Part shown: positions 6,548 to 53,913 of the stretch, one piece after another
Position numbering within the stretch: the stretch's first letter is position 1
Layout of the letters: every line of letters begins with the position of its first letter
Assembly (NCBI GenBank): GCA_029248665.1
Contig: JAQWIW010000002.1
Span: 1 to 64,000 of the forward strand
Source: Opitutia bacterium
GTDB taxonomy: Bacteria > Verrucomicrobiota > Verrucomicrobiia > Opitutales > Coraliomargaritaceae
DNA: 64,000 bases
Direction: 5' to 3'
Notes under the pieces: generated by a model
Told to the model about the DNA's origin: nothing
Database searches by the model: none
The model's input: only the letters and a program-made list of their open reading frames with translations
Translations under genes and position numbers: made by a program

Positions 6548-6588
6548 ATGAACAATGCAGAAGTATTGTTTTATTGGGGCTAAAAACT

Positions 6589-9063
6589 ATGAGTGAATTG
6601 AATTTGCACATAGACTCAGCTTATTGGATCACCCCTGGGTGTGGTTGTATTCTGCTTTCTGACAATTGGGGCTTTGAGGCATTACCCACTTTCAAATTTA
6701 ACGATCCCGCTTTAGAAATACTGCGCTTGCGAAGAATGCCTCCATCTGATTTAGCCTATTTTACTGCATACGAGCGCATTGATCAGGATATTCAATTTAT
6801 CCTAGATCCTAATCGCCACCCTCATATTGATTTCCACCAAGATCCCATTTCTGTTGTCGGTGCATTTAATAATTGGGGCGATTGCCCAAACAGATTAGAT
6901 TACGAACTGACCTCTGAGGCTCCGCACAGCAACATAGCCTTATTTACAAAGACAATCAGTGTCGAAGAATTAAATCTTCATTCCGAAAGCATTGAATTCA
7001 AATTTGTGACTCGCTCTGGACATTGGATCAACCCACTCAGCTCAGCACCCAATTTAAAGAAAGATGCCCGTGGAAATTTAAATTATCACTTAGACCCTAA
7101 TTGCAATGGCAAGCACGCCTTCTTATTTAACCTCGATGGACATAGAGGCCTAGATCGCCCATTATCAGTCTGTTTAGATCAAGAAAACTACACACCCATC
7201 CTTCCTGGTCTTTCTTTTTATGATTTAAAAACCGACCTTCCGCTTGGTTCCATAATTGAGTCTGATCAATCAACAACATTTAGGCTATTTGCCCCAAGGG
7301 CTTCTAAAGTCAGTGTCGAAATTCAAGCCACACTCGACCAACCCCCAATTCGCCACTCACTCAACCTCATGTACGATCAACTCACATGGGAAGTAAATAT
7401 TCAAAACGATCTCAGTGGATTTCTTTACAACTTTTTTGTCGAAGGTTTTAATGATTCGATAAGTACTTTTTTTGATGAAACTGTGCCTATCCTAGACCCC
7501 TACGCCAAAGCAACTACAGGACCCAATGGCCCGGCAATAATCATCAATCAACAACTAGCTCAGCCCGCAGAAATACCTTTTAACCCTCCGCATTGGCATG
7601 ATTTAAATATCTTAGAATGTCATATAAAAGACCTTACTGCTCAGCTTTCTTCAGACTGCCATGATAAAGCCTCTAATGATAAAGCCCCAAATAAAGGCAC
7701 CTTTGCCGCTATCTCTAAGTATCTCCATACAAAAGATAATTATTTGCTCACCCTTGGTGTAAACGCCATTGAACTACTCCCCATTCAGCAATTCGACAGC
7801 CCCAACCAAGAAAGCTATCATTGGGGTTACATGACTAATAATTATTTTTCCCCATGTGCTTGGTACACCGACACTCAAGACACCTCGAACCCGAACCAAA
7901 GCTTCAAGCAAATGGTCGAAGATTTTCATCAATACGGGAAATCAGTAATTCTTGATGTTGTTTACAATCATGTTGGCGAACCACCTCACCTTGCTCGAAT
8001 AGACAAAGCTTATTATTTCTATCTCACCGAAGCAGGCGAATTCGAAAACTGGAGCGGCTGTGGGAATACTATACGCAGTGAATCTGCCATGTCCAAAAAA
8101 CTGATTATAGATAGCTTAATACACCTCATCCAAACCTATGATGTTGATGGATTTCGCTTTGATCTAGCAGAACTCTTAGGCATTGAGGTTTTAAAAGAAA
8201 TCGAACAAGCACTCAAAGCAGTTAAACCCTCCATCGTCCTCATCGCTGAACCTTGGAGCTTTCGCGGGGAAATCAAAATGGACCTTCGTCACGCTGGCTT
8301 CATGTTCTGGAATGACGAATTTCGTGAATTTGCTCAGGAATATGTACTAGGGAAAAGCCATATCGATTCACTCGCATACTTTATTAAAGGCTCAACCAAC
8401 CATCTCGCTGCTTGGCCCTCTCAAAGTGTCAACTATATCGCATCCCACGACGACCGAACCTGGATTGATAAAATCACGGAAAATCCTAATCACCAAGGGC
8501 AAAATCCCACTCAAAATGACATAAGACGCACCCACATGGCAGCCGCTCTCATGTTCTTTTCTCTTGGCACACCGATGCTCACGCAAGGTCTCGATTTCTT
8601 AAAATCAAAAAATGGTGAAAACGATACTTACTTGAGAGACGACCTCAACGCCCTCAACTTCGACGCAATAAGTACCCATCGCAATACCCATAATTATTTT
8701 CAAAATTGGATTCAATTTAGGCAATCCCCTTGGGGAGACTGCCTTCGACTTGATGATTTCCCTAGCCCCCATTACAGTAAAATCGCCCGTTCAGAACACA
8801 CCGAACATTCTAGTGCCGTCATTATTTTCAACGCAGATCAATCCAAAGGCCCCAAACAAATTCTTCTCATGATAAATCCACATCATGAAAGTTCTAACAT
8901 CCCTCTAGGGCAAACCCTAGCCGATGATTGGAAAGCCATTGCATCAATCGATACATTCAACTTTTCCGGAATTGAAACCCAAGTAAATTTCAGAAATCAA
9001 GATCACGTAAATCTTCCACCGATGAGCCTTCTTCTTTGCGTAAGACCTGCTTGGAATAGTTGA
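6589..9063 (+). CDS. Pullulanase/glycogen debranching-type GH13 enzyme
   Basis: An 824-residue GH13 alpha-glucanase that probably cleaves alpha-1,6 branches of glycogen or related alpha-glucan. An N-terminal region (about 1-240) contains SVVGAFNNWGDC, a CBM48/Ig-like fold, and a second beta-rich domain has TTFRLFAPRASKV. The catalytic barrel shows all four GH13 regions: DVVYNH near 456, GFRFDLAEL with the nucleophile Asp near 525, IAEPWS with the acid/base Glu near 554, and NYIASHDD with His/Asp near 620. YNHVGEP and IAEPW resemble type I pullulanases more than GlgX. The ATG at 6589 is preferred to a TTG at 6574, which supplies a GGGG ribosome-binding-like patch. No signal peptide is seen, so it is probably cytoplasmic and works with the phosphorylase at 20.9-23.4 kb. 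Confidence 0.88.
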   Translation: MSELNLHIDSAYWITPGCGCILLSDNWGFEALPTFKFNDPALEILRLRRMPPSDLAYFTAYERIDQDIQFILDPNRHPHIDFHQDPISVVGAFNNWGDCPNRLDYELTSEAPHSNIALFTKTISVEELNLHSESIEFKFVTRSGHWINPLSSAPNLKKDARGNLNYHLDPNCNGKHAFLFNLDGHRGLDRPLSVCLDQENYTPILPGLSFYDLKTDLPLGSIIESDQSTTFRLFAPRASKVSVEIQATLDQPPIRHSLNLMYDQLTWEVNIQNDLSGFLYNFFVEGFNDSISTFFDETVPILDPYAKATTGPNGPAIIINQQLAQPAEIPFNPPHWHDLNILECHIKDLTAQLSSDCHDKASNDKAPNKGTFAAISKYLHTKDNYLLTLGVNAIELLPIQQFDSPNQESYHWGYMTNNYFSPCAWYTDTQDTSNPNQSFKQMVEDFHQYGKSVILDVVYNHVGEPPHLARIDKAYYFYLTEAGEFENWSGCGNTIRSESAMSKKLIIDSLIHLIQTYDVDGFRFDLAELLGIEVLKEIEQALKAVKPSIVLIAEPWSFRGEIKMDLRHAGFMFWNDEFREFAQEYVLGKSHIDSLAYFIKGSTNHLAAWPSQSVNYIASHDDRTWIDKITENPNHQGQNPTQNDIRRTHMAAALMFFSLGTPMLTQGLDFLKSKNGENDTYLRDDLNALNFDAISTHRNTHNYFQNWIQFRQSPWGDCLRLDDFPSPHYSKIARSEHTEHSSAVIIFNADQSKGPKQILLMINPHHESSNIPLGQTLADDWKAIASIDTFNFSGIETQVNFRNQDHVNLPPMSLLLCVRPAWNS

Positions 9064-20866: not shown

Positions 20867-23398
20867 TTAGTCTGACACTTTTACTGGCTTGAGATTCCAA
20901 ATATTTTTAGAGTATTCGCCAATTGTACGATCTGAAGAAAAGAAGCCCATACGCGCTGTATTAATAATCGCCATACGTGCCCATTTCTCTGAGTCAGCAA
21001 AAGCCACTTCTACTTCTGATTGCGCTCGCACATAATCCGCATAGTCCGCCAATACCATGTACGGATCTCCGTGGTCTAACAAGCTATCACAAATTGGAGC
21101 AAAGGCATCCGGCTCACCTGGTGAAAAATAACCAGATCTTAACCAATCAATCACTTCACGTAGCTCCCAGTTTGAATTATAAAAGTCATAAGGATTATAA
21201 CCATTCTGTTTCAAAGTTTCTACCTCTTGCACCGTGTTCCCAAAAATGAAAATATTTTCGTCACCCACCGCATCTTTTATTTCAACATTTGCCCCATCTA
21301 AAGTACCAATTGTTAAAGCTCCATTCAAAGATAGCTTCATGTTTCCTGTCCCTGATGCCTCTTTACCTGCAGTTGAAATTTGCTCTGATAAGTCTGCCGC
21401 AGGAATCATTTTTTCTGCTAAAGTCACACGATAATTTTCTGGGAAAACAACCTTAATCATTCCCTTAATACGCGGGTCATGATTGATTTGTTCAGCCACC
21501 TTATTAATCGCGCGAATAATACATTTGGCTAAAGTGTAACCTGGAGCGGCCTTCGCACCGAAAATAAATACTCTCGGTACAATCGTCAAATTAGGGTCAC
21601 TCAATAAACGTCGGTATAAAGTTAAAATATACAATAAATTAAGGTGCTGACGCTTATACTCATGCAGACGTTTAATTTGCACATCAAATAAAGCATCTGG
21701 GTCGATATCCACTCCACAACAGGCATCGCCATCTGTAGCCACTAGATTGGCAAACGCTTGTTTATTGGAACGCTTAATCGCCATAAATTCTTTTTGAAAA
21801 TCAACATCCTCGGCATACGCTTCCAAGCCACGCAAAGCGTCTAAATCACGGATCCAATCATTCGAACCCAAAGTACGATTAATCAAGTCACTTAAACGTG
21901 GATTACAGGCCAAGAGCCAACGCCTCGGAGTAATACCATTTGTCACATTGATAAACTTATTTGGGTACAATTCATGAAAATTCGAAAAGAGATGGCTCTT
22001 CAACAATTCTGTATGCAGAGCGGCTACACCGTTGACTTGCTTAGAAGCAACCACGGACAAATAAGCCATTCGTACCGAACGCCCTTCACCCTCTTGGATA
22101 ATCGATAAGTTACGCTTCATCGCATCATCATTTGGCCATTTCACCTCCACCTCATTGCTTAAGAACCAATGGTTGATTTCATAAATAATCTCCAAATGTC
22201 TCGGTAAAATTTTCTCAAACAGTCCCACGCTCCATTGCTCAAGTGCTTCAGGCAACAAAGTATGATTCGTATAATTCAAAACCTTGCGCACCAAAGTCCA
22301 TGCTGCATCCCATGTGAAATCATTTTCATCAATCAACAAACGCATCAATTCAGGCACCGCAATTGCTGGGTGTGTATCATTTAATTGAATCACGGTACTC
22401 GCATCAAACGAATCCCATGAATCATGCATTTGGAAATGACGGCGAATAATATCCTGTAAAGAACAGGTCACAAAAAAGTATTGTTGAATCAGACGTAATT
22501 CCTTACCCGCCTCCGTGCTGTCATTTGGATAAAGCACCTTGGAAATCGTTTCTTGCTCGGCCTTCTCCCGAACCGCTTCCACATAACTCCCCTGATTAAA
22601 CATCTCCAAATCAAACTTATGACCTGCAACCGATTCCCATAAACGGAGAAAGTTCACTGTGCCACCACCATGACCAACAATAGGTAAATCATAAGGGACA
22701 CCTTCCAAGGTCTTATAATCCAGCCATATCGATTTCTTCTTTCCATCAGCTCCCACATGCGGAGATACTCGGCCGTATAGCTTCACCTTTTGTGTGAACA
22801 AAGGTCGCTTGATTTCCCAAGGGCAACCCTTCTCTGTCCACGTATCAGGTTCTTCAATTTGATGTCCATTCAAAAATTCCTGACGGAACAAACCATAACG
22901 ATAATGGATTCCGTATCCAATCGCAGGCAAATCCATTGTTGCCAACGAATCCAAGAAGCAAGCTGCCAAACGGCCCAGCCCCCCATTACCTAGACCCATA
23001 TCGGGTTCCACATCCACAATCGTATCAAAATCTTGACCCAAGTCCGTCAACACATCACGAACCATATCCTGATAGCCTGAATTATACAGATTGTTGGTGA
23101 GCAAACGCCCCATCAAATACTCCATGCTCAAATAATACGCTCGACGCACCTTATTCCTATTGTGCGTCCTCTGTGTCTTCATAAAACGGTCGAGCAAACG
23201 ATCCTTTATTGCATGACAAGTCGCAAGCCACCACTCATCCTGAGTCGCATCATTTTCATGTCGTGCCAAAGTAAAATGTAGATGATCCAAAATCGACTGA
23301 CGTAAAGCCGTTGCATCTTCATCTAAACAAAATCGTCCATTCACACCGTCTAACCCACACGAGTTTTTTCGTGTCTCTTTTACATTTTCAATACCCAT
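20867..23398 (-). CDS. glgP: Glycogen/maltodextrin phosphorylase
   Basis: An 843-residue GT35 phosphorylase releasing glucose 1-phosphate from the non-reducing ends of alpha-1,4-glucan. Seen are [13 protein letters not shown] and [18 protein letters not shown] near residue 130, QLNDTHPAI near 345, the [11 protein letters not shown] segment, [12 protein letters not shown], and the PLP-binding [27 protein letters not shown] near 665 with the Schiff-base Lys. Length is normal. The ATG at 23398 is chosen over a TTG at 23413 because the latter forms a GGGGA patch at ribosome-binding distance. Its substrate would come from the debranching enzyme at 6.6-9.1 kb. It lies 60 bp downstream of an ATP-grasp-like gene on the same strand. 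Confidence 0.96.
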
Positions 23399-23458
23399 AA
23401 AATTTATCCCCAAATTAAAAAATTAATATACACAATATTTATTTAAAAATTACAACCC

Positions 23459-24919
23459 TCAATCACAAGAAACACACGGCATTAGGGAAGCATCTTTCAT
23501 TCCATGTATGATTTTCTTATCGGCAGGGCATAAAGTTGCTAAAATTCCACGCAAATCGACACTCTGCTTCGCCTCATTCACAAAATAATACGGGCACAAA
23601 CGCACACGCCCCTCCATAGAAACCACCTTGCCCTCCGCATTGTATACAGGATGCACCACCCGTTTCGGTTTTTTATACACCTGAAGTATATGTAAAGAAG
23701 TCGAAGCCATGCTTACCGCACGCCAAATCGCCTCCTCCCATTCCTCACGGGACGAATCACTTCCCAAGACCACACTACGAGCACCCCAAGCACTTTCGTG
23801 AAAACCACTGATCTTCAAAATCAAATTTCGCTCTCGCTTCCCTGCATCAATCAACTGTTCCCAGCGAGCAATCGGCTTCCCATTGACAAATGGAGCATCT
23901 AAAACCGCATTCGGCGGCAGCTCCACTGGATCCACCACCCATGTTTGCGGAATCATTTGCTTCAAAATTGCATACGACCTCTTCGATAAATGTTCACGCC
24001 AAAAATCCTCCAAAATTTGATGGTGAAATAAAGCCATACTCAACTTCTCTTCCTGAAACGCTCGCATCGGAGGAACTACAGGCAACAAATTACCCCCCTT
24101 AAGACTACTCGAACCACATTGCTTAAGTAAATACTCAGCAATTGAAACATTCGACAAATCAAATAATTCCCAAAAACGATACACCACATCCACTGCTTGA
24201 GGATCTCCATCAATTCCTACGCAAATTGAATCCCCTAAAGGCATCACTGAATCTGGATGAAATACATGTACCCGCCGCCCACGATTACGCAATTCCTTCG
24301 CAATCCATTCCATCTCTGGTCGATAAGTCTCCGCCTCATCACTCACCAAAATCACAATGTAAGGAACATGTATATTCGGAGCCTTCGCTGCCAATACACG
24401 ATAAAATGAATCCACCATATCCTCTTCCTTTGTACCTTCACAACCCACCAACTTCGAACCATGCACTTGCCCATACAAAGCATTTAAAAAAGCAGTCAAC
24501 CCGATCCCTCCAGGAACCGAATCCAACTCCGTCATCGCAAATCCCGAATCCGTCAACAAAAGATCTGGACGTATCACCGGTGGTAAAGCTCCGCGCACAT
24601 CCCGCCCCAAACCATAAGCCACCAAAGACTCTGGCTTACCTCGATTCAAATATTCTGCCACCCATGGAGCCACCAATTCACGATTCCTCAGAAGATTTTT
24701 TCCTTCAGAAGACCGCACATACAAAAGCTCTAAAGCTCGGTAAAAATCATAACACGCCTGACCTAAAGCCTGGATCTCTTTCACTTGGTCACCACTTAAG
24801 CCAAAAGCCTTAGGCGACAATAACCAAGTCTTATCCTTAAATAGATCCTGTCCTCCAAAGGCTGATTTTAAAACATCAAAAGACAATCCCTCCATCTCAT
24901 TTATTACACCATCATTCAT
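23459..24919 (-). CDS. ATP-grasp-like protein of unknown substrate
   Basis: A 486-residue protein resembling circularly permuted ATP-grasp/glutathionylspermidine-synthase-like ligases. The pieces that suggest this are TELDSVPGGIGLTAFLN near residue 150, VILVSDEAETYRPEMEWIAKEL near 208, VDVVYRFWELFDL near 265, and NLILKISGFHESAWGARSVVLG near 385, which looks like the nucleotide-binding Lys strand and loop. SSREEWEEAI follows, and the last residues are CVSCD. No signal peptide or membrane segment is seen. It lies between prfB (19 bp upstream) and glgP (60 bp downstream), all leftward, so these may be co-transcribed. The substrate is unknown; a link to glycogen is only a guess from position. Confidence 0.55.
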   Translation of the reverse strand: MNDGVINEMEGLSFDVLKSAFGGQDLFKDKTWLLSPKAFGLSGDQVKEIQALGQACYDFYRALELLYVRSSEGKNLLRNRELVAPWVAEYLNRGKPESLVAYGLGRDVRGALPPVIRPDLLLTDSGFAMTELDSVPGGIGLTAFLNALYGQVHGSKLVGCEGTKEEDMVDSFYRVLAAKAPNIHVPYIVILVSDEAETYRPEMEWIAKELRNRGRRVHVFHPDSVMPLGDSICVGIDGDPQAVDVVYRFWELFDLSNVSIAEYLLKQCGSSSLKGGNLLPVVPPMRAFQEEKLSMALFHHQILEDFWREHLSKRSYAILKQMIPQTWVVDPVELPPNAVLDAPFVNGKPIARWEQLIDAGKRERNLILKISGFHESAWGARSVVLGSDSSREEWEEAIWRAVSMASTSLHILQVYKKPKRVVHPVYNAEGKVVSMEGRVRLCPYYFVNEAKQSVDLRGILATLCPADKKIIHGMKDASLMPCVSCD

Positions 24920-44465: not shown

Positions 44466-44825
44466 GTCGATTTTGATCTGCTGTAAGCCAGATTCTGTCC
44501 ATCGGTTGATACCAATTGTGCGTTCATTTATCTATGCGACATACCCGAAATCATAGAGCGAGCCACTCGATTCCCTATTTTGTCTTGCACCAAGCTGGGT
44601 TTTTCAAGCCATCATTGTTACCTTTGATGCGGTGAGCTCTTACCTCACCTTTTCACCCTTACCTAATTTAATTCTAAGAATTAAGAAAGGCGGTTTATTT
44701 TCTGTGACACTCTCCGTCATATTTTGTCACCAAAATATGCCCCTACTTTCATAGGGAACTCTGCTCTGTGGTGTCCGGACTTTCCTCTTGCGTAAGCAAG
44801 CGAACGCCCGCAGATCAAAATCGAC
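44466..44825 (-). ncRNA. rnpB: RNase P RNA (rnpB)
   Basis: A 360-nt bacterial RNase P RNA on the minus strand, the catalytic RNA that trims tRNA 5' ends. The conserved 5' P4-proximal sequence GAGGAAAGTCCGGAC is at about 44788-44774. The 3' end has ACAGAATCTGGCTTACAG, the complementary P4 half and terminal region. The two ends form a long P1 helix: GTCGATTTTGATCTG (44825-44811) pairs perfectly with CAGATCAAAATCGAC (44480-44466). The universally conserved GAGCAGAGTTCCC-like region and P-loop segments such as AGGTGAGGTAAGAGCTCACCGCAT are also visible. It is probably transcribed towards rpsT. Confidence 0.95.
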
Positions 44826-45108: not shown

Positions 45109-45522
45109 ATGACAAAGAAACCAACAAAGAAACCAACAAAAAAAATTGTTAAAAACGCGACGAAAAAAACGGCAAAGAAAGCGGTTAAAAAAGTTGCAAA
45201 GAAAGCAGTAAAAGCGACAAAAACTGCAACTAAGAAAGCACCCACAAAAAAGAAAGTGCTCAAATCGACCATAGCGGCTCGAGTAGATGTAGGATTTGGA
45301 AACAATCTTTATATACGAGGTGAAGGAGCCGGACTCAGCTGGGATGTCGGAATACTCATGAAGAATTTATCCCCATATGAATGGGCATGGGAAACAAAAA
45401 GTACCTCTAAACCGATTGAATACAAATTCTTGATCAATGATGAACTTTGGGCCAATGGGGAAAACCAATTCGCAAAATCAGGCGACACCTCTATCAGTGC
45501 ACCAACCTTTACTTGGGGATAA
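45109..45522 (+). CDS. Histone-H1-like lysine tail fused to a CBM48/AMPK-type domain
   Basis: A 137-residue two-part protein. Residues 1-52 are Lys/Ala/Thr repeats (TKKPTKKPTKK, KKTAKKAVKKVAKKA), like bacterial histone-H1-type DNA-binding tails. Residues 57-137 look like a carbohydrate-binding module 48/AMPK glycogen-binding fold: ARVDVGFGNNLYIRGEGAG, LSWDVG, YEWAWET, then IEYKFLINDELWANGENQ, which resembles the YKFxVDGxWxxD pattern of CBM48. No signal peptide. It could tether nucleic acid (or another acidic polymer) to glycogen; that is inference. The gene is monocistronic, with a long structured leader, and converges on the DUF374 gene. The domain could alternatively be a general Ig-like fold without sugar binding. 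Confidence 0.7.
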   Translation: MTKKPTKKPTKKIVKNATKKTAKKAVKKVAKKAVKATKTATKKAPTKKKVLKSTIAARVDVGFGNNLYIRGEGAGLSWDVGILMKNLSPYEWAWETKSTSKPIEYKFLINDELWANGENQFAKSGDTSISAPTFTWG

Positions 45523-45526
45523 ATTA

Positions 45527-46213
45527 TTAGCTAGAAATAGTACTCATTCGGTCTTGTAGGAGTGATACGGATTCACCTAGGCTTTCTTTAGAATCGGCCT
45601 GGCTAGTTGTGTCACAAAATTCATTTGGGTTCATTCGAAACCAATTTATCTGCACCTTGGAAAATGGGAGTGGGAGCATTAGCTGATCCCATGTTTTAAA
45701 GCGAATGCATCGAGATGGATTCAAATGGACTAAATCAATAGGTACTTGATATTTGTGCGAGAGAAAGACGGCCCCTGGTTTGAATTGATATATAGGGCCA
45801 GTTGGCCCGTCTGCTGCATAAGCAATTATATTGCCCTGCTTTATCGCTTTGTGGATACCTTTTAGCGCTTGTAGAGATTTATTATTAGCCGAACCGCGTA
45901 CGGTTGCATAACCAAATTTTTCCAGAAGTGCGGCAAAGAAATCTCCATCCTTATTGGCACTGACCATCACTGAAAAAGGTGGGAATTTTTTTTTGTATAT
46001 AATCAAAATGAGAAAAACCAAGAGCAATTGGTTGTGCCAAAATAGGAAAAATGTGGACTTTGAACCATCTTTTTCGTGTTCTTCGGCTCTCAAGAACGAT
46101 TCAGTAGCATCGTTGTATTGAATCCTTAATGTCTTGGCGAGTAGATACATAAAGAGCGATACTAATAGAAGTAGGAATCGTTTAGGCAAACTTAAGCCCG
46201 ATGATGCGCTCAT
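45527..46213 (-). CDS. DUF374-family lysophospholipid acyltransferase-like protein
   Basis: A 228-residue membrane-associated protein. After an N-terminal hydrophobic helix (FLLLLVSLFMYLLAKTL) come FLFWHNQLLLVFLI near residue 60, VSANKDGDFFAALLEKFGYATVRGSAN near 85, and YAADGPTGPIYQFKPGAVFLSHKYQVPI near 132. These are the DUF374 motifs related to the PlsC/LpxL acyltransferase fold, with WHN and DGPTGP in place of HxxxxD. Relatives lie next to lipid A genes in many Gram-negatives; a role in lipid A or other acylation is inferred. It converges with the lysine-tail gene, 4 bp between stops. Confidence 0.85.
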   Translation of the reverse strand: MSASSGLSLPKRFLLLLVSLFMYLLAKTLRIQYNDATESFLRAEEHEKDGSKSTFFLFWHNQLLLVFLILIIYKKKFPPFSVMVSANKDGDFFAALLEKFGYATVRGSANNKSLQALKGIHKAIKQGNIIAYAADGPTGPIYQFKPGAVFLSHKYQVPIDLVHLNPSRCIRFKTWDQLMLPLPFSKVQINWFRMNPNEFCDTTSQADSKESLGESVSLLQDRMSTISS

Positions 46214-51024: not shown

Positions 51025-53913
51025 ATGCATAACTTAATTCTGTATCTTGCAATCCTTACATTTAGCCTTGGTTCACTACAGGCCACATCGACTTCGAACA
51101 TCCAGAGCTTACTCAAATCTGGCGACTTTACTGGAGCAAAGTCTCTTATAGAAGAAAGACTAACAAATAATCCGGCCGATAGCGAAGCCTCTATTTACAA
51201 ATGTTTGGCTGATTTAGGTTATTTTCTTGAAAGTACACTCCCTTCACACTTAGTCGCTAATTTAAATGCTAAATCAGATGCGACTAATACTGCTTTTGAT
51301 TATGATCCATCTACCGGTGATATAGAAGCGAATCTCATTTCTCTCAAAGATTCTTCAGACTACACTATTGGATATTGGACAGACTTTGAAAACTCTGCCT
51401 TCCCCGTGTTTTCAAGTAATGGCGATATTAAATCCCAAAATCGCTTTTATAATATTTTTGAATGGACTTTAGGATCCACTACTGGAAATCAATTTAGGAT
51501 CGAAAATAACTATTTTCAGGCCAATAAAAATAACTCATTTATTTCATTCACATATACCGGTGATGAATCTAAACAGTGTGATTTCTCTATTAATGCAACC
51601 GCTTCAAGTGGCTATTTAAACTTTTATTTAAATGGGGTCTACATGGGCTATATTTCAGACTCTTCTTTTAATTACGAAATTGGCGATCAGTATATTTCTG
51701 GGAGTGGTCAAATGCCTCTCTTTTTAAGAAATGGGGATACAGTAACTTTTGAAGCAAAAACTTATAGTTACGAAAATTCGGATTCGTTTATAGGCCCAGG
51801 CATAATGCCAAATGATTTACTTCATGGATCTATTGCTTCAGAGAATGGAACAGGATACCTCTTAACTTATCCAAATTTAGGGACTTCAATTACATTAAAA
51901 GATATCATTTCTATTCTTACCGAATCTGGCTTGCCGGTAAGAAACCTACTTGAATCACTGATAACTAATTTCGGAAATGTCAGTATTGAAGATCCGGTAA
52001 CTATACCTGCTTCATTTACTGATTATCACAGTGATATCTTAATTCAAAATGAAGATGCTGTAGTAATCCAATCCTTATTGAAAATCATTAATGCCTTTCT
52101 TGGAATGGCTGACCAATATGACTTTTCTCTCGACTACAACTATGACACTTTATCGAATTTAGAAATCTATAAAACAGCAAAAGCATTCTTCTCCAGCTTT
52201 CCTAATATATTTGAAAGTATGCCAGAACGCAGTAGCGATCAGGCAGATACCCAAGCAGAAATTTTATCTGCATTAACTCAGATTGAAACTATTCTCCCGC
52301 TAATATGGTATCGATCACCCCTATCAGATCCATTTATCAGCTATTTGCTTTCTATTTCTGACGATTTAGATAATGGAAATTATGCTGAATTGAATGCTCA
52401 GATTGATTCGTTAAAGGCCTCACTCAGTGGATTCGACCGCTACACCAATTTAACCCGAAGCCAGAATGGAGGTTTTAAATATAGCCTAGCGCCTTTTGTT
52501 TCGGACACGCCATTCTCATTTAAAGGCCTAATTGAAGATATGGAAAATGATCCTGAAGCTCATGCAATACTTTATGGCAACGATTGGGGAGGTGCCGATG
52601 AAAGCAATATCGCTTATAAATTTCTAACTCAATATGGTTTAGTTAATGACATTTTTCCAATGAGCATGGGTGGTAAAGTTTTAGTATTTAAGAATGCTAA
52701 TGGAATTATCAGTAATACCATTTTAGTTAATGAAAATTCTTGGAATTATTTAGATTATTCTCCTTTTTCAGGGGAACTTAAAACTAATCAGGGGGAAATC
52801 TTTGATAATGCAGATTACTATAATCCTATTCAGCTTTCTTATTTGAGTGAAGGAGAAGGAATATGGGAATTAAATGATTCTAGTGGTATGGGCTATACAC
52901 CTGAAGAAGGAACATTTTTCTACTATAATGGAGCATTAGATTTAAATCATAACGGTATCCCAGACGGAACAGAGATAGCTGATTCTTCATCCCAATCCGA
53001 GGGGGCCGAAGGGGTATTCATTAAAGGAAATAATTTAGACTACTTAAATGGCTTAAATTCAACACTCATCCAAAATGCTGAATTTATAAGAGTACAAGCT
53101 GCTCCAATCATACTCAGTGGATTAATTGCGATTGAAGGGAATCAAAGCAATGGCGATGACATGTATGGAAATAGCTCTGAAGAATTTTATCCCTATCAAG
53201 TCTCTTACTATATTTCAAATAAGGATATTATTCAATTAGAATATGAATATCCCGTGGACAGAGATTGGGACAATTATTCTTACGAGAACGGAATAATTAC
53301 TGACTCTGAGGATTTTGATAAAACATATTTAAATTTTGATAGCACATATACTGCTACTTATTTTGAAAATGATGGTGAGACTGACAAAATAGTTTTTTAT
53401 CCAAGTTACCTAGATTTAGATAACGATGGATTAAGTGATGGCACTGAAATTATCGCAGGAGCAATTCCCGAATTCATAGATTATCCCTCATACAATGATA
53501 TTCAAAATGCTATTACTGCCTATAATGAAAATAATGAAGATGGGGCTTCAAATCCGATAAACGAAAACTCCCCAATCAACGAAGACAATCCCAATGCATT
53601 AACGGATAGTGATAATGATAATATGCCTGATGCATTAGAACTTAAATTTGGAGGAAACCCTTCGAATGCTAACGATGCACAAACTTCTTTGGATGCTATT
53701 GTATTGGTTGATCGCTATACCATAAATGAAATCTCAGATCTCAGATTAGGCTCTACACTTTATGAAGTTAGTGAAGGATTAGCTTCATTTAATATTATCC
53801 TAGAAGAAACAAGTGATTTAACCACATGGACTCCTTATGGGGAATATTCGATGGAACTATCTACCGATGGAAATGAGCAAACCAAATTTTATCGCTTCAA
53901 AATGAGCGAATAA
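51025..53913 (+). CDS. Large secreted protein with calcium-type (TSP3-like) repeats
   Basis: A 962-residue protein of unknown function. A signal peptide (HNLILYLAILTFSLGSLQATS) is followed by a TPR-like start (LKSGDFTGAKSLIEERLTNNPADSEASIYKCLADL). Long Asn/Ser/Tyr-rich beta regions make up the centre. Three Asp/Asn-rich loops resemble thrombospondin type 3/calcium-binding modules: DLNHNGIPDGTEIAD near residue 639, DLDNDGLSDGTEII near 797, and DSDNDNMPDALELKFGGNP near 861. The C-terminal strand-rich end (LEETSDLTTWTPYGEYSMEL to KFYRFKMSE) is a motif seen in exported Verrucomicrobia proteins. No anchoring LPXTG, PEP-CTERM or lipobox is visible. It is AT-rich and could be a substrate of the T2SS at 12.5-20 kb (inference). 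Confidence 0.75.
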   Translation: MHNLILYLAILTFSLGSLQATSTSNIQSLLKSGDFTGAKSLIEERLTNNPADSEASIYKCLADLGYFLESTLPSHLVANLNAKSDATNTAFDYDPSTGDIEANLISLKDSSDYTIGYWTDFENSAFPVFSSNGDIKSQNRFYNIFEWTLGSTTGNQFRIENNYFQANKNNSFISFTYTGDESKQCDFSINATASSGYLNFYLNGVYMGYISDSSFNYEIGDQYISGSGQMPLFLRNGDTVTFEAKTYSYENSDSFIGPGIMPNDLLHGSIASENGTGYLLTYPNLGTSITLKDIISILTESGLPVRNLLESLITNFGNVSIEDPVTIPASFTDYHSDILIQNEDAVVIQSLLKIINAFLGMADQYDFSLDYNYDTLSNLEIYKTAKAFFSSFPNIFESMPERSSDQADTQAEILSALTQIETILPLIWYRSPLSDPFISYLLSISDDLDNGNYAELNAQIDSLKASLSGFDRYTNLTRSQNGGFKYSLAPFVSDTPFSFKGLIEDMENDPEAHAILYGNDWGGADESNIAYKFLTQYGLVNDIFPMSMGGKVLVFKNANGIISNTILVNENSWNYLDYSPFSGELKTNQGEIFDNADYYNPIQLSYLSEGEGIWELNDSSGMGYTPEEGTFFYYNGALDLNHNGIPDGTEIADSSSQSEGAEGVFIKGNNLDYLNGLNSTLIQNAEFIRVQAAPIILSGLIAIEGNQSNGDDMYGNSSEEFYPYQVSYYISNKDIIQLEYEYPVDRDWDNYSYENGIITDSEDFDKTYLNFDSTYTATYFENDGETDKIVFYPSYLDLDNDGLSDGTEIIAGAIPEFIDYPSYNDIQNAITAYNENNEDGASNPINENSPINEDNPNALTDSDNDNMPDALELKFGGNPSNANDAQTSLDAIVLVDRYTINEISDLRLGSTLYEVSEGLASFNIILEETSDLTTWTPYGEYSMELSTDGNEQTKFYRFKMSE

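Follow-up and report, generated by a model that had tools for sequence, protein, structure and literature searches.

A lysine-rich tail fused to a predicted alpha-glucan-binding domain: a possible link between glycogen and the nucleoid in Opitutales

Introduction

Tails rich in lysine, alanine and proline have been described to tie bacterial storage granules to the nucleoid, as in PhaF and AlgP (PMC3574117, PMC9239181, PMC13052382). AlgP, a lysine-rich, histone H1-like protein, associates with polyphosphate granules and is involved in their spacing (PMC9239181). For Stbd1, a conserved tryptophan of its CBM20 domain is essential for glycogen binding (PMC5358331). That the location of glycogen has consequences is evident from csrA mutants of E. 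coli, which accumulate glycogen at the old pole, become chromosome-free and cease to divide (PMC4836754). Glycogen is nowhere mentioned in a 2025 review of organelle positioning, and the consulted part of an extensive review from 2024 on prokaryotic alpha-glucan enzymes mentions neither the nucleoid nor CBM20. A literature search for fusions of CBM48 or CBM20 with a histone-like tail, or for a glycogen-nucleoid tether, returned nothing relevant in a coverage made up mostly of journals other than subscription titles.

Here we describe a gene from the window, by which we mean the whole analysed stretch of 64,000 nucleotides of Opitutales DNA. The gene joins a cationic tail to a domain with a predicted starch-binding fold.

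Results

The gene and its features

The open reading frame at 45109-45522 on the forward strand extends from ATG to TAA, codes for 137 residues and is a real gene. In comparisons with five related species of the genus, pS (0.6-0.8) is far above the pN of the domain (0.08-0.13), and the gene is thus under purifying selection. Since the same fusion recurs in dozens of genomes, an artefact caused by assembly, misassembly or frameshift can be ruled out. A GGAAG-like stretch occurs a short way 5' of the start codon, and the RNase P RNA is encoded upstream on the opposite strand (44468-44819). The annotated features are as follows.

45109-45522, forward strand: whole gene, tail and CBM20-like domain (open reading frame; homologues with the same architecture; pN well below pS)
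45109-45264, forward strand: N-terminal Lys/Ala/Thr tail, residues 1-52 (23 Lys, no acidic residues; low-confidence helix 11-42)
45265-45519, forward strand: predicted CBM20/CBM48-like alpha-glucan-binding domain, 85 aa (pLDDT 94.7; Foldseek; Pfam CBM_20 and AMPK1_CBM matches of relatives)
45340-45342, forward strand: Trp codon, domain W26, equivalent to glucoamylase W543 (alignment; 78/78 and 16/16 short forms)
45424-45426, forward strand: Lys codon, domain K54, equivalent to glucoamylase K578 (alignment; 78/78 and 16/16 short forms)
45448-45450, forward strand: Trp codon, domain W62, equivalent to glucoamylase W590 (alignment; 77/78 and 16/16 short forms; 0/23 in the long paralogue)
45463-45465, forward strand: Asn codon, domain N67, equivalent to glucoamylase N595 (alignment; Asn in 39 and Asp in 39 of 78 short forms)
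45527-46213, reverse strand: convergent neighbour, DUF374, acyltransferase-like (Pfam PF04028, 1.9e-19; adjacent at most of the order's loci)

When the 137-residue window protein was searched against Pfam and NCBIfam, no model matched. An initial annotation, made from the sequence, had read it as a 52-residue Lys/Ala/Thr tail joined to a CBM-type domain, and this architecture is borne out by the composition of the tail (23 Lys, no Asp or Glu) and by the predicted fold of the remainder (pLDDT 94.7). Elsewhere in the window, a probably exported protein of 962 residues (51025-53913, forward strand) is also devoid of Pfam and NCBIfam matches.

Fold of the C-terminal domain

A model of the domain, built from a family alignment of 25 sequences, is all-beta and confident (AlphaFold pLDDT 94.7). 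The closest structures retrieved by Foldseek are the CBM20 domains of fungal glucoamylases (E 3e-4) and STBD1, followed by SEX4 phosphatase, AMPK beta CBMs and other starch-binding modules; CBM20 and AMPK CBM48 domains dominate the matches. Because PDB searches by sequence and by profile gave no CBM match for the domain, the link to CBMs is drawn from structure and from the Pfam matches of family members: CBM_20 is matched by 3 of the 25 relatives (best 2.9e-5) and AMPK1_CBM (PF16561), weakly, by 4 of the 25 (best E 0.014). The model argues strongly for a CBM or starch-binding fold. The predicted fold is the starch-binding beta-sandwich of CBM20 (Pfam PF00686), the sequence profile of which is not matched by the window protein, and we class the domain as CBM20-like without assigning it to CBM20 proper.

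Related assignments were examined as well. The window protein matches neither PF16561 nor PF02922, the models searched for the AMPK beta CBM and CBM48; neither Pfam nor NCBIfam assigns it a phasin domain, its folded part being CBM-like and not of the PhaF type; and the N-terminal membrane segment of STBD1-type proteins is absent. Of the CBM48/AMPK signatures proposed initially, the starch- or glycogen-binding fold holds, but the nearest solved relatives belong to CBM20 (glucoamylase, STBD1), with the CBM48 of AMPK behind. Structure prediction, which had been suggested as a check on the C-terminal part, returned the CBM fold confidently and with the ligand residues retained.

The putative glucan site

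The domain was aligned with those of glucoamylase and AMPK beta-1, the letters of which were checked against the PDB. Six columns are invariant in the alignment (G12, G19, W26, K54, F55, W62). W26, K54 and W62 coincide with AMPK beta-1 and with W543, K578 and W590 of glucoamylase, the residues known to hold alpha-glucan at site 1. As N67 aligns with N595, each of the four residues used to recognize CBM20 site 1 (W543, K578, W590, N595) has its counterpart in the window protein (W26, K54, W62, N67). From alignment and model we strongly infer that the glucan site of this protein is intact.

The homologues occur as short forms, like the window protein, and as a long paralogue, the two being assigned by the length of the open frame. 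Conservation was analysed for 78 short homologues that come almost entirely from the order, and for 16 from the Competibacteraceae family (94 in all). In the first set, W26 and K54 are found in 78 of 78 and W62 in 77 of 78 sequences, the exception having Tyr, while position 67 is evenly divided between Asn (39) and Asp (39). In the Competibacteraceae family each of W26, K54 and W62 is kept in 16 of 16. In the long paralogue, W26 persists in 14, K54 in 7 and W62 in none of 23 sequences, although the core residues N13, R18, G19, W40, N58 and D59 are retained. That the long paralogue keeps the core yet has lost W62 and in most copies K54, while the short forms keep both, points to selection specific to the putative binding site, and no other observation speaks as strongly for alpha-glucan binding by the short form. 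Judged by residues and predicted fold, the short form very likely binds alpha-glucan.

The long paralogue has about 350-690 residues and is shared by the majority of the order's genomes. Its layout consists of two N-terminal hydrophobic segments, a coiled-coil-like part, an acidic linker and the CBM20-like domain (examples are L100:2833-4149, L105:6282-7664 and L111:6234-7913, among others); at least two N-terminal hydrophobic segments were found in 19 of 21 and the acidic linker in 20 of 21 sequences. The copies of L100 and L105 are unrecognised by Pfam. Throughout the genus of the window genome, this genome included, the short form occurs alone and the long paralogue is absent. In a tree of the 82-residue domain, long and short forms are split across one branch with a support of 100/100, and little is resolved beyond this split.

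The cationic tail

Residues 1-52 comprise 23 Lys, 9 Thr and 8 Ala and neither Asp nor Glu (pI 11.3, net charge +23), and they are followed by an acidic domain (residues 53-137, pI 4.7, net charge -3). Among the 214 open frames of at least 60 residues in the window, this tail is the most Lys-rich and the most cationic stretch of 52 residues. The full-length single-sequence model is poor and shows for the tail only a helix at residues 11-42, with low confidence. The window tail has the features of a KPAA tail (long, K/A/P-rich and acid-poor, with disorder being putative), which are found in part in the Competibacteraceae homologues.

The fusion and its basic tail are conserved in the order. A net positive tail is found in 59 of 60 short homologues, mostly from Opitutales (median length 71, median 23% Lys, n=60), but the sequences of the tails cannot be aligned, so the tail conservation that had been named as a check is found at the level of composition only. 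Tail length ranges from 17 to 154 residues across the short homologues and charge varies too; two congeners have shrunken tails of 17 (+7) and 27 (+2) residues. In Competibacteraceae, Lys is mixed with Glu, Pro and Ala, the charge is about +0.1 per residue and one tail is negative. The tail of the window protein is among the most densely charged of the homologue set. By these sequence comparisons, the basic tail is a family trait within the order and not an absolute rule.

Neither the window protein nor any of 16 Competibacteraceae forms has a hydrophobic segment, and the one segment encountered among 19 short forms of the order belongs to a protein probably assigned a too-early start. Because hydrophobic segments are nearly absent, the short form is probably cytoplasmic.

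Distribution

Of the 74 genomes sampled from the order, 64 encode the short form and 71 encode some form of the protein. Homologues were found in 6 of 310 genomes from the rest of the class, and a search at the phylum level gave nothing convincing beyond the class. The protein is also common around the Competibacteraceae MAG G619, occurring in 29 of 39 genomes of that MAG's taxonomic family. Competibacteraceae are known for the accumulation of glycogen. A survey of Verrucomicrobia and Chlamydiae, as proposed in the initial annotation, therefore leads to one verrucomicrobial order but not to the phylum at large, and to a single MAG labelled Parachlamydiales, with Competibacteraceae as an addition. 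This MAG (L041) provides the sole homologue with a chlamydial label, the tail of which is only slightly basic (+4) and in which W62 is replaced by Tyr; the label could be a binning error. Chlamydial DNA-binding proteins were considered as relatives and rejected, as the paper on Waddlia deals with a SWIB protein and contains no reference to glycogen.

Glycogen, phosphate and polyphosphate genes

The debranching enzyme and the glycogen phosphorylase noted earlier in the same window are confirmed, but they are remote from the gene and share no operon with it. The debranching enzyme is of the pullulanase/GlgX type (6574-9063, forward strand, about 36 kb away) and the phosphorylase is encoded at 20867-23413 (reverse strand, about 22 kb away). 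A 486-residue ORF adjoins the phosphorylase gene (23459-24919, reverse strand) and has no Pfam or NCBIfam match. At none of the loci examined did the gene form an operon with genes of glycogen metabolism.

The window genome codes for GlgA, GlgB and GlgP (glycogen synthase, branching enzyme and phosphorylase). GlgA was found in nearly all genomes of the order and GlgP together with GlgB in 19 of 19 tested, and this near-universal presence makes co-occurrence with glycogen genes uninformative as evidence. Because glycogen genes also occur in members of the order without the short protein (e.g. G054, G292, G039), the protein looks like an accessory to glycogen that is not required for glycogen metabolism. 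Four genomes of the order (G019 and, from family f21, G056, G180 and G207) have the short protein, GlgB and GlgP and no strong GlgA profile match; they perhaps use another route to alpha-glucan.

The conserved neighbour of the short gene is the convergent DUF374 gene, which reflects a kept gene order and not an operon partner. In the window's taxonomic family, pstB-phoU is found directly upstream on the same strand at 19 of 26 checkable loci, though in only one member of the window's own genus. PhoU was confirmed by Pfam, and the gaps to the short gene are about 110-190 nt at four loci. The phosphate-transport cluster pst-phoU is seen at L080:128-7499, with equivalents in L004, L007-L013, L015-L018, L020-L022 and L024-L027. 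This placement suggests a phosphate-responsive expression of the short gene.

Searches for the polyphosphate kinases PPK1 and PPK2 found neither one in the window genome (97.8% complete) or in G229 (98%), which also encodes the short protein, while one or the other turned up in the majority of the remaining genomes tested. The window genome is small (1.42 Mb); its congeners G002 and G006 have both enzymes. Polyphosphate, which had been named as an alternative partner of the tail, is unlikely for the window protein, given that both kinases escaped detection in its genome.

Discussion

We tentatively propose, at somewhat less than an even chance, that the protein is a two-ended adaptor between glycogen and the nucleoid, i.e. 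the glycogen counterpart of PhaF/PhaM and AlgP. In the cytoplasm, its C-terminal domain would clamp alpha-1,4-glucan chains of glycogen with the two Trp, the Lys and the Asn of a site 1 of the CBM20 type, and its putatively disordered, cationic N-terminal tail would bind a polyanion non-specifically, most likely nucleoid DNA. Glycogen particles would then be held on the nucleoid or spread along it and be shared between daughter cells rather than gathered at a pole. As the failure to detect PPK1 and PPK2 argues against polyphosphate, nucleic acid would be the best partner left for the tail; that this is DNA, and that the protein has a role in positioning, is proposed by analogy. We counted in favour of the adaptor that the family is common in the taxonomic family of Competibacteraceae MAG G619. 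Against it we counted the variation of the tail in length and charge, the lack of a glycogen operon, the glycogen genes in genomes devoid of the protein, and the four genomes that have the protein without a strong GlgA match. That the whole order and Competibacteraceae couple glycogen to the chromosome by a dedicated tether, possibly one that responds to glucan, is a wider reading which we regard as rather doubtful.

The tail might bind acidic proteins, ribosomes or the membrane instead of DNA, and the protein would then be a glycogen-binding scaffold, e.g. one that recruits glycogen enzymes or docks on the acidic linker of the long paralogue. The latter complements the short form in charge, and the K/E/P/A tails of Competibacteraceae resemble a disordered linker more than a DNA binder. 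However, the window genome and its genus lack the long form, yet the window tail is among the most densely charged, and we consider the scaffold unlikely, though it deserves attention. A link between glycogen and polyphosphate, in which the tail binds polyphosphate as AlgP does and is under phosphate control, would agree with pstB-phoU upstream at 19 of 26 loci of the family and with PPK1 or PPK2 in most other genomes tested; it is improbable in view of the window genome and G229, which have the short protein and neither enzyme detected.

Two further readings concern the domain itself. It might have kept the CBM fold, lost glucan binding and become a protein-interaction module, and the long paralogue demonstrates that the fold can outlast the loss of the site; with W26, K54 and W62 near-invariant in the short forms of two phyla, this is very improbable. 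Least probable of all is a nucleoid protein that senses glycogen, where occupancy of the CBM by glucan alters the hold on DNA and couples compaction or transcription to energy stores. The opposite charges of tail (pI about 11) and domain (pI about 4-5) could make glucan and DNA binding compete, but Competibacteraceae tails carry little charge.

A small, order-wide protein with an intact predicted glucan site and a chromatin-like tail would make the positioning of bacterial glycogen directly testable.

Comparison with known systems

With the CBM20 domains of glucoamylase and STBD1, the window domain has the fold and the site-1 residues in common, and some of its relatives match Pfam CBM_20. It differs in length (85 aa compared to about 100 aa), in having no Pfam match and no catalytic partner, and in being joined to a cationic tail. 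The CBM48 of AMPK beta is alike in fold and in the positions of W, K and W, but the kinase-binding C-terminal part of AMPK beta is missing here, and by fold search the window domain is nearer to CBM20. Mammalian STBD1 holds glycogen by a non-catalytic CBM20 domain, to which the domain described here is similar (PMC5358331), but it anchors glycogen to membranes, whereas the short form is devoid of a membrane segment. In the long bacterial paralogue the parts are arranged as in STBD1, but its glucan site has degenerated.

The tail has its counterparts among granule-associated proteins. AlgP has a similar K/A-rich, cationic tail of the disordered type (PMC9239181), while the rest of AlgP is predicted to form a helical domain instead of a CBM, and the window genome yielded no match to PPK1 or PPK2. 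In PhaF and PhaM, which have a published function in locating granules at the nucleoid, a domain for the binding of a storage polymer is, as here, combined with a K/A/P-rich, H1-like tail. There, however, the polymer is PHA, the domain is a phasin and the tail is C-terminal; here the polymer is putatively glycogen, a phasin domain is absent and the tail is N-terminal. The parts are thus of known kinds, while their combination and the polymer appear to be new.
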